Below the pieces are notes generated by a model. The model was not told the DNA's origin and made no database searches. It saw nothing but the letters and a program-made list of their open reading frames with translations. Below are positions 35,573 through 37,383 of a stretch of DNA of 37,383 nt, piece by piece; position 1 is the stretch's first letter, and each line of letters starts with the position of its first letter. The position numbers were made by a program, and so were the translations under genes. This DNA comes from a virus: positions 1 through 37,383 of the IMG/VR virus record IMGVR_UViG_3300032893_000172; one strand, given 5' to 3'.

Positions 35573-35880
35573 ATATATTGTATTTATTAATAATATCTAA
35601 TACAGGATCCCCCATAAATATTACATTTACAGTTCCTGTGTTTTCAGACTCTATCTTCTATAAGGTCGTACGATCCTGAACACCTATCCTTACTCTTCCC
35701 ACATTTCCTACTTAGCAGAGGTAAGGCCCTTATATATTTTCAAATCCTTTCACTCCTATTTAGAGTTACTACTCTTTAATAGAGTTAATAATTGACATAA
35801 CGAATAAGTTTAAAAAAGGTTACGTTTTTGATAAACTTTTTTTAAAAAAATTTTTATAGATAGGTATATTTGAGCTCGTC
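35573..35880. other. Gene-free divergent region, left half
   Basis: No convincing gene lies here. The stretch holds the leader of the leftward operon. It contains two mutually exclusive 5-bp hairpins: AGAGT (35762-35766) with ACTCT (35771-35775), or the same ACTCT with AGAGT (35781-35785). A homopolymer-rich A/T tract lies at 35831-35857, next to the rightward promoter candidate. The leftward promoter itself is not obvious; I found no perfect TAnnTTTG on the minus strand within the first 300 nt. Confidence 0.5.
35865..35872 (+). promoter_or_regulatory. Bacteroides-type -7 box (TATATTTG) for rightward transcription
   Basis: TATATTTG matches the Bacteroidota housekeeping -7 consensus TAnnTTTG exactly. 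It is preceded by a long A/T tract (35831-35857) that could act as an UP-like element. A clear -33 TTTG at the usual distance is missing, so the call is moderate. Transcription would start near 35878 and read into the folded leader and the 58-aa gene at 36169. Confidence 0.4.
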
Positions 35881-35891
35881 TTCTACCCTAT

Positions 35892-36052
35892 TCAAACTAC
35901 CCCAATGCGCAAATGCGCAGGAAAGTACTCCGGTGCAAATTTGAGGATGAAACTTTAAGATTTAGAGCAATTAACTAGAAGATTGAAAAATCAATGTCGA
36001 TCTAGTAGGTTCACCAGACTAACGGCACTAAGCGATAACGGTGATTGCTCTA
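35892..36052 (+). ncRNA. Structured leader RNA with three-way junction
   Basis: Two elements fold next to each other. First, TGCGC/GCGCA with an AAAT loop (35906-35919) is enclosed by TCAAA/TTTGA (35892-35896 with 35940-35944). Second, a three-way junction: P1 TAGAGCAAT/ATTGCTCTA (35963-35971 with 36044-36052, 9 bp); P2 ACTAGA/TCTAGT (35974-35979 with 36001-36006) topped by ATTGA/TCAAT with an AAAA loop; P3 TCACC/GGTGA (36011-36015 with 36040-36044). No known RNA family recognised. It lies between the promoter box and the 58-aa gene. Confidence 0.5.
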
Positions 36053-36148
36053 TCTCTTTTATTAGAGGCGCGTAATAGAAGCGCTAACACAAACTTATTT
36101 CCCATCCCAATGCTAGACCCTTCCCAAGAAGGATCTTCGCCATTACTG

Positions 36149-36160
36149 AAACCACTAATA
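36149..36160 (+). promoter_or_regulatory. Start-associated motif AAACCACTAATA, copy 1
   Basis: This 12-base motif ends 8 nt before the ATG of the 58-aa gene at 36169. Identical copies lie at 37053-37064 and 37249-37260, each ending 9 nt before a start. It replaces any Shine-Dalgarno. It could be a translation enhancer or a phage promoter core. Confidence 0.65.
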
Positions 36161-36168
36161 ATTTAGAT

Positions 36169-36345
36169 ATGAAAGCAACTATTAGTAAGATTGAACACTT
36201 TGATCGTAAGAGTGATGGTACTCCGATCAGTAAGATCAGCTTTGAACCAACAGTTATCAATGATGAGGTTGTATTCCTCAATCCTAGATGGTCTGATGGA
36301 CATTTGGATAAGAAACTTGAAGGTAAGATAGCTAGAGTAGAGTAA
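36169..36345 (+). CDS. Small 58-aa rightward gene in the divergent region
   Basis: The frame starts at ATG 36169 and ends with TAA at 36343-36345. The protein (MKATISKIEHFDRKSDGTPI... SFEPTVINDEVVFLNPRWSDGHLDKKLEGKIARVE) is soluble, with predicted beta strands and a charged C-terminus. It has no stop inside, an exact AAACCACTAATA motif 8 nt upstream and a folded leader of about 290 nt, which support a real gene. Its codons are visibly richer in G and C (CGT, CCG, GAG, CTC, TTG) than the structural genes, so it may have another origin. A hairpin covers the stop codon. No family recognised. Confidence 0.6.
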   Translation: MKATISKIEHFDRKSDGTPISKISFEPTVINDEVVFLNPRWSDGHLDKKLEGKIARVE

Positions 36346-36362
36346 TATCTACTCTTCCTCCT
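36334..36362 (+). terminator. Terminator-like hairpin spanning the stop of the 58-aa gene
   Basis: AGAGTAGA (36334-36341) pairs with TCTACTCT (36348-36355) around a 6-nt loop GTAATA that contains the TAA stop. A pyrimidine-rich tail (TCCTCCTTATCC) follows. The stem is 8 bp with three G-C pairs, so it is of medium strength. It would end the first rightward transcript or separate it from the structured region that follows. Confidence 0.5.
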
Positions 36363-36428
36363 TATCCTTTACAATCTAAAATACACTATTTTCATCAATT
36401 AGTCAATAACTAAATAGCTTATAACATA

Positions 36429-36684
36429 GCAACTAAGGGAGAAACCTATCGAATTAACATTCAATAGGAAAGTTGTCATTAATCAGATAGAACAAAAGCC
36501 TAGAAATCCAAGTCAACGCTAATCGGACTTATATACAGATTTGACTGCTCGTCATCTATCTGATTACATAAAATTTAATAGTCATAATACTTTACACTAA
36601 TAAAGCACTCTTTCGAGCATAAGATGTAAATTGCCCTGGTACAAAATGCAGATTTATTTTGAGTTTACTTTATTATGACTATTA
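36429..36684 (+). ncRNA. Three consecutive stem domains before the 113-aa gene
   Basis: Domain 1: CAACT/AGTTG (36430-36434 with 36471-36475) encloses CCTAT/ATAGG and GAAT/ATTC hairpin stems (36445-36468). Domain 2: TAATCAGATAGA/TCTATCTGATTA (36480-36491 with 36555-36566, 12 bp) encloses AGTCAA/TTGACT (36511-36516 with 36541-36546), with AAGTC/GACTT as an alternative. Domain 3: TAATAGTCATAATA/TATTATGACTATTA (36576-36589 with 36671-36684, 14 bp) encloses TTTACA/TGTAAA (36591-36596 with 36625-36630). No protein gene fits. It could be a long mRNA leader, a structured ncRNA or an origin. Confidence 0.55.
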
Positions 36685-36720
36685 TTTATATTATTATCAA
36701 ACAATCTAAACTATACAACC

Positions 36721-37062
36721 ATGAAAAATTATCAAATAACAGTATTAGATCGTCCACATTACAAAGTTCAGTTAACAAACATTAAAAATAAAACTGAAAA
36801 ACCTATCATATTAAAGATCTATCAAAAAGGAAATAGAGAATTAATTTTCGATGAAATCAACCATATTGTCGAAGAATCTCTCCCTTGGAGCAATCACTTA
36901 CCATATAAAATATCACCAAAAAGAATGTATTTCTGTGGAAAAATGATACAAAAATGGATTAAATATCCTTGGAATAAAAAAGCAATTAGAATAAGAAAAT
37001 TCATTTTCGACTTCGAATATGAGACAGGAATGGATGAAATAGTTCTACTCACAAACCACTAA
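36721..37062 (+). CDS. Hypothetical rightward (probably early) protein
   Basis: The protein has 113 aa, basic, with alternating strand-like N-terminus (KNYQITVLDRPHYKVQLTNIKNKTEKPIILKIYQKGNRELIFDEINHIVEE) and a positively charged middle (SPKRMYFCGKMIQKWIKYPWNKKAIRIRKFIFDFEYETGMDEIVLLTNH). No family recognised. It is the first gene after the structured leader at 36429-36684 and lacks the AAACCACTAATA motif; CTATACAACC stands before its ATG. The motif of the next gene overlaps its last codons, so the downstream genes are linked to it. The direction opposite to the structural block suggests early expression. Confidence 0.6.
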   Translation: MKNYQITVLDRPHYKVQLTNIKNKTEKPIILKIYQKGNRELIFDEINHIVEESLPWSNHLPYKISPKRMYFCGKMIQKWIKYPWNKKAIRIRKFIFDFEYETGMDEIVLLTNH

Positions 37063-37064
37063 TA
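37053..37064 (+). promoter_or_regulatory. Start-associated motif AAACCACTAATA, copy 2
   Basis: The motif overlaps the last two codons and the TAA of the 113-aa gene and ends 9 nt before the ATG at 37074. It is read here in a different codon phase than in copy 3, so identity is not due to protein coding. Confidence 0.65.
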
Positions 37065-37073
37065 TCTACATAT

Positions 37074-37250
37074 ATGGAAAATCTAGTTGCAATACATGCA
37101 GTATCAATTATAGAAACAAAAATCCCATACTTTGGATCTATAACTGATTACGATTTACCAATTACATCATCTCCAATGTTCTACATAGAACTATGGAGAG
37201 ATAAATATCAAGAAAATCCAGATAGAGAATTTCTACTATCTAAAAATTAA
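37074..37250 (+). CDS. Small 58-aa rightward gene
   Basis: The frame runs from ATG 37074 to TAA at 37248-37250. The protein (MENLVAIHAVSIIETKIPYF... SSPMFYIELWRDKYQENPDREFLLSKN) is hydrophilic with a beta-like N-terminus. The start is supported by AAACCACTAATA 9 nt upstream, and its stop overlaps the next copy of that motif. Such overlapping small genes are typical of early phage operons. Function unknown. Confidence 0.6.
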   Translation: MENLVAIHAVSIIETKIPYFGSITDYDLPITSSPMFYIELWRDKYQENPDREFLLSKN

Positions 37251-37260
37251 ACCACTAATA
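37249..37260 (+). promoter_or_regulatory. Start-associated motif AAACCACTAATA, copy 3
   Basis: The motif begins within the TAA of the 58-aa gene and ends 9 nt before the ATG at 37270. The spacers of copies 2 and 3 also share TACATAT before the ATG. Confidence 0.65.
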
Positions 37261-37269
37261 ATTACATAT

Positions 37270-37383
37270 ATGATACCACCAAAAGTTCAACATCATCCAA
37301 CATCTGGATTATTAATTGGATGGAACATAGTAATCTGTAGCAGAGATAACACTCATCAAATGTTAATACATAAAGATGAAAAA
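37270..37383 (+). CDS. Partial rightward gene running off the window
   Basis: From ATG 37270 the frame is open to the window end (38 codons: MIPPKVQHHPTSGLLIGWNI... INHK-type end). The start is preceded by AAACCACTAATA with a 9-nt spacer. The C-terminus lies outside the window, so no function can be given. Confidence 0.55.
   Translation, partial: MIPPKVQHHPTSGLLIGWNIVICSRDNTHQMLIHKDEK

Follow-up and report, generated by a model that had tools for sequence, protein, structure and literature searches.

A conserved word before early start codons in one lineage of crAss-like phages, a candidate promoter block for the virion RNA polymerase

Crass-like phages are the most common viruses of the human gut, and the virion RNA polymerase is one of their hallmark enzymes; in phi14:2 it drives early transcription that is resistant to rifampicin (PMC10136315). 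The open-access papers that we searched, a scope which leaves out the main phi14:2 paper, describe no promoter motif for such a polymerase. The closest described systems are found in other phages. Virion polymerases of the phiKZ type recognize one contiguous block and start 6 nt downstream of it, as in the AR9 consensus AAATATATATTAT-6N-G, and AR9 promoters are also known within ORFs (PMC5312081); the virion polymerase of P23-45 likewise uses a conserved upstream motif (PMC10770324). At the level of mRNA, about 30 T4 messages carry RegA sites that overlap the AUG or stand immediately 5′ of it, and RegB cuts within early initiation regions (PMC3014915). Here we describe a short word that stands at a nearly fixed distance before early start codons in two related crAss-like phage genomes, and we weigh these two kinds of system as models for it.

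The window, by which we mean the whole stretch of DNA analysed, is a virus record of 37,383 bases. Its leftward 35.5 kb carry genes for packaging and for the head, an arrangement known from crAss-like late blocks; the terminase has a match in the PHROG family of terminase large subunits, and the portal region shares 85% identity across 226 bases with phage cr118_1, a member of the Suoliviridae, Uncouvirinae. Rightward genes follow from a first start at 36169, the last of them running past the window end. Via a 96%-identical protein we found a relative, IMG/VR record 3300033004_000001 (hereafter G001), whose 92,612 bases (92.6 kb) can be regarded as complete because of a terminal direct repeat of 127 bp; it was handled as circular, and flipped and rotated such that its rightward early genes lie on the plus strand (“C” coordinates). 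Over the greater part of their length the late blocks of the two genomes can be aligned at 79-91%, and their early regions have diverged almost completely. Searches for further relatives with this early region, using a 494-aa and a 977-aa protein, the DNA polymerase, the terminase and conserved intergenic words as queries, returned G001 only; a terminase search of genome contigs found no relative, and partial contigs with 76-79% terminase identity end before the early region, as judged by where the terminase lies in them. A joint query with the leftward genes closest to the divergence point was not feasible, as these are not homologous between the window and G001. Every comparative statement made here is thus limited to two genomes, the window and G001, the two found with this early region. 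That the rightward genes are early is suggested by their position beside the divergence point together with the expression order of crAss001, in which the corresponding block is transcribed first.

The first-pass annotation had drawn attention to three exact plus-strand copies of a 12-base word, AAACCACTAATA, ending 8, 9 and 9 nt before an ATG, and all three are indeed present. The first (36149-36160) has ~575 nt of non-coding DNA on its 5′ side and precedes the ATG at 36169, the start of a 58-aa ORF (36169-36345) with no Pfam or PHROG match. The second (37053-37064) overlaps the TAA of a 113-aa ORF (36721-37062), for which no relative was found, and precedes the ATG at 37074; the third (37249-37260) overlaps the TAA of the next ORF (37074-37250, 58 aa) and precedes the ATG at 37270, whose ORF passes the window end with 38 aa visible (37270-37383). 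As had also been observed, the two overlaps with preceding stops are in different codon phases. The fourth of the four rightward starts, at 36721, has no copy. The claim that the leftward block is free of the word can even be widened, as no further exact copy occurs on either strand of the whole window. The degenerate form WAWCCACTAA occurs three times in the 1.8-kb rightward stretch, as opposed to 0.025 times in dinucleotide shuffles; in the late block it is found once on the plus (non-coding) strand and never on the coding strand. With three mismatches to AAACCACTAATA permitted, the window contains 104 matches versus 95 by chance, and hence the signal is confined to the exact or near-exact word.

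In G001, WAWCCACTAA occurs nine times on the coding strand of the early block, where 0.21 would be expected; every one of these plus-strand sites falls in the opening ~14 kb of rightward genes (C 35906, 36810, 38027, 38889, 39184, 39649, 41235, 44876 and 48790). The word is absent from the replication (middle) genes behind the early block and from the opposite strand of the early and middle regions, and the late region has a single copy, on its non-coding strand. The suggestion that the motif is special to early genes therefore held in G001, with the same spacing: six sites lie 10-13 nt before an ATG (starts 35927, 36830, 38049, 38910, 44897 and 48813). As for the other three, C 39649 ends 1-2 nt before the ATG at 39661, and C 39184 and 41235 fall in codons 3-6 of the ORFs starting at 39175 and 41229, which have the 22-mer AATTATGAAAAAACCACTAATT in common. 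One pair of sites is orthologous, in that the 62-aa product starting at C 36830, with AATCCACTAA 10 nt upstream, resembles the window ORF at 37074-37250 (FYIELW...P...FL.S.N).

Measured from the word to the ATG, the spacings in both genomes are 10, 11, 11, 11, 10, 12, 11, 2, 11 and 13 nt. In nine of these ten upstream copies the word stops 10-13 nt short of the ATG, an arrangement matched by none of 200,000 uniform placements, and all 12 early-block copies are confined to the stretch from about -23 to +17 relative to a start codon. When the upstream regions of G001 were ranked by k-mer in an unbiased manner, words of the CCACTAA type came out on top for early genes and did not come first for middle and late genes. 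A motif (mixture) model of the early upstream regions of both genomes reached 51.7, compared with 21-31 in shuffles; for G001 only, the gain was modest with an 11-nt model (36 versus 24-32 shuffled) and 50 versus 35-39 with a 14-nt model. Because it stands about 10 bases before many early starts in both genomes and almost nowhere else, AAACCACTAAT is a real control signal of early genes.

How far this signal extends was judged from nine further phages, all of them more distant than G001. None of cr118_1, cr50_1, cr53_1, crAss001, crAss002, phi14:2, G007 and G011 has the motif as a feature of its starts, nor does cr4_1, in which a single word has an ATG close by, and de novo motif models of nine other phages yielded nothing comparable. 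More distant contigs found by their DNA polymerase contained only background one-mismatch matches. Two sets of candidates were discarded: near-matches in crAss001 (96937 and 99355) run antisense to the early genes of that phage, and the matches listed in an IMG/VR scan for AAACCACTAAT-N8..11-ATG were single-hit, chance-like contigs. The same pattern occurs once in ~20 Mb of six Bacteroidales genomes versus three times in 1.8 kb of the window. Looking for the motif in related crAss-like phages, as had been proposed, was therefore positive in G001 and gave no support beyond that one lineage. Being nearly absent from Bacteroidales genomes and not found at the starts of other crAss-like phages, the motif would appear to be a signal of this lineage, neither of its hosts nor of Crassvirales at large.

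The explanation that we consider best, and to which we would give an even chance of being correct, is that AAACCACTAAT, with its core WAWCCACTAA, is the block by which a gp66-like virion RNA polymerase recognizes early promoters, with leaderless or very short-leader mRNAs as the result. The block would be read as DNA by this two-barrel enzyme, which would be injected together with the phage DNA. Transcription would start a few nt downstream, such that the mRNAs would begin at or just before the ATG, and the block would consequently be held ~10-13 nt upstream of it; if the start fell 6 nt past the block, as in the AR9/phiKZ type, it would lie within a few nt of the ATG, which would explain the spacing. 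Early genes or small operons situated after non-coding, often hairpin-bearing gaps would tend to carry their own copy, as would some packed genes. The restriction to the early block and to one strand, the 10-13 nt spacing and the presence of a gp66-like polymerase gene in G001 all support this explanation. In that genome, a protein of 4047 aa with a DFDVD motif matches the giant virion proteins of phi14:2 (1.8e-43) and crAss001 (4e-81); it was seen in G001, the window fragment ending before the corresponding region.

Two options had been offered for the motif at the outset, a translation signal of early genes and a promoter core for the phage's own RNA polymerase; our analysis leans to the promoter and keeps a reading at the level of RNA alive. 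We lean this way because the motif is a single contiguous block that prefers starts with long gaps before them: in G001, copies at the usual spacing precede 6 of 12 starts with a gap of more than 60 nt and none of 12 tight starts (p = 0.014). In one case a terminator-like hairpin lies directly upstream, namely a stem-loop at C 44813-44867 followed by TTTTTT, which leaves ~30 nt before the ATG at 44897, with the motif inside that space. Further reasons are the lack of complementarity to rRNA and the fact that neither the hosts nor later phage genes use the word. Bacteroidota host promoters conform to the consensus TAnnTTTG at -7 and TTG at -33, and no such box pair was present at the early motif sites.

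The comparison with known promoters cuts both ways. Like the early promoters of AR9, the motif is one contiguous, strand-specific block (11-13 nt) before early genes, and the AR9 promoters inside ORFs (PMC5312081) offer a parallel for copies within coding sequence. However, the AR9 consensus differs in sequence, is followed by leaders of 26-491 nt with no fixed distance to the ATG (PMC5312081), and is read by a multisubunit polymerase from mapped start sites, whereas our word is defined by its sequence. The pre-early motif of P23-45 resembles ours in being upstream, limited to early genes and found in phages with a two-barrel virion polymerase, but it is AT-rich, was mapped by ONT-cappable-seq and ChIP-seq (PMC10770324), belongs to a phage of Thermus and is common to several related phages. 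The free distance to the ATG in AR9 weakens the promoter explanation, as do several features of the motif itself. A promoter at C 39649, 1-2 nt before the ATG, would remove the start from the transcript, and the exact copies in codons 3-6 (C 39184 and 41235) pose a similar difficulty. Two of the three window copies lie at packed gene junctions; with the window added the association with gaps weakens to p = 0.10, and half of the G001 early starts that follow long gaps have no motif. Finally, the motif was not found in other crAss-like phages, for which such polymerases are described as a hallmark. Early promoter words specific to a virus are a known kind of thing; what is new here, as far as we have seen, is this particular word and the way it is locked to the start codon. 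Being strict in sequence (10-11 nt) and fixed in its distance to early starts, it is a direct and cheap experimental target.

Alternatively, the motif may act in the mRNA, as a translation control element of early genes to which a phage factor binds, either in competition with the ribosome or to recruit it; this is a serious possibility, albeit the less probable one. The factor might be a RegA-like repressor or an enhancer, or the motif a RegB-like cleavage signal. All 12 copies fall inside the ribosome footprint, including the one abutting the ATG and the two in codons 3-6, the spacing to the ATG is tight, and some copies sit at packed junctions where no promoter is needed. By occupying the initiation regions of several early genes the motif resembles RegA operators, and RegB sites too lie in the initiation regions of many early genes (PMC3014915). 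On the other hand, RegA sites conform to no clear consensus and mostly overlap the AUG or lie next to it, and the RegB site is the Shine-Dalgarno sequence GGAG (PMC3014915), whereas here one strict word lies mostly 10-13 nt upstream. If the site could lie anywhere in the footprint, the clustering of nine of the ten upstream copies at 10-13 nt would be hard to understand, and the preference for long upstream gaps in G001 is not accounted for. Since middle and late genes do not have the motif and yet rely on the same ribosomes, a special early factor would be needed. The particular version in which AAACCACUAAU, about 10 nt upstream of the AUG, is read by a phage factor that switches early proteins on or off, in a sequence-strict and early-specific manner and in hosts that do not use Shine-Dalgarno sequences, is doubtful. 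Were the motif read in RNA, it would represent start-site control without Shine-Dalgarno in phages of Bacteroidota.

It is also conceivable, though improbable, that the ribosome itself recognizes the motif in place of a Shine-Dalgarno sequence. Bacteroidia ribosomes do not use the latter and other determinants matter to them (PMC6847099, PMC9976891), and the fixed spacing to the ATG would fit. This idea is nevertheless largely refuted, given that the six Bacteroidales genomes contain the arrangement only once and that most phage genes, including the middle and late genes served by the same ribosomes, do without it. The first-pass annotation was right that the 16S tail offers no complementarity (the longest run is only 4 nt), and over the whole 16S rRNA the motif pairs no better than shuffled motifs, 73.5% of which match its complementarity. 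The known determinants are adenines at -3, -6, -12 and -13. These Kozak-like adenines act, as the motif would, in the initiation region of mRNAs that have no Shine-Dalgarno sequence, but they are single adenines that tune initiation genome-wide and not a 10-nt word of early genes only (PMC6847099). An A at -3 is rarer at motif genes (4 of 9) than at the others (32 of 44), a difference that is not significant (p 0.11).

More improbable again is a small antisense RNA encoded by the phage with the motif as its target. Targets of small RNAs typically lie within the initiation window, as the motif does, and one plus-strand ATTAGTGG occurs at C 40552 in a structured non-coding gap; this 8-nt match, however, leaves the conserved AAA uncovered, and neither G001 nor the window has a plus-strand RTTRGTGGTTT, G-U pairs permitted. 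Chance or a protein-coding repeat, for which the AT-rich genome and two G001 copies encoding KPLI might speak, can be dismissed on the counts over expectation (3 versus 0.025 and 9 versus 0.21), the differing codon phases and the restriction to one strand and block.

The rightward start at 36721, which has no motif, is preceded at a distance of 18 nt by TTATCAAAC (36694-36702, plus strand). The word TTATCAAA, which precedes this start, also stands ahead of two rightward starts in G001 (word at C 41832 and 50042), and in cr118_1 and G011 it is enriched close to starts of early or middle genes. It was not counted as the same signal as the motif because much of this enrichment reflects the A-rich context adjoining the ATG; it may be a second start-proximal signal or merely that context.

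The early block of G001 has further features of note. A 494-aa protein (C 45819-47303) matches AMP-binding enzymes (PF00501, 2.7e-7, just above the cut-off), and the 1.5 kb that follow (C 47304-48812) contain no convincing gene and no tRNA or Rfam match. Non-coding gaps of this genome harbor stems of 11-14 bp closing 49-60 nt (C 35782-35865, 37242-37317, 37944-38022 and 49954-50033, also 52693-52780 and 62799-62874) and shorter ones at C 36264, 36770 and 44813; five stems, the shorter ones included, end ~26-31 nt before a start codon. They could possibly be small RNAs or, as in the early mRNA of T7, sites of processing. In the window, about 600 nt of non-coding DNA (35573-36148) separate the divergent blocks, of which 35884-35940 is kept in G001 and 35963-36052 is predicted to form a branched structure. 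Rfam searches were negative throughout, also for a pair of sequences, AATCAGATAGAACAAAAGCCTAGAA ... ATTTGACTGCTCGTCATCTATCTGATT, found only in these two records. Its halves (25 + 27 nt; window 36481-36505 and 36539-36565, C 36264-36314) are identical in both genomes within otherwise diverged non-coding DNA, and their ends pair as a stem of 11-12 bp, with an insert of ~33 nt between the halves in the window, so that the element looks like a structured RNA.
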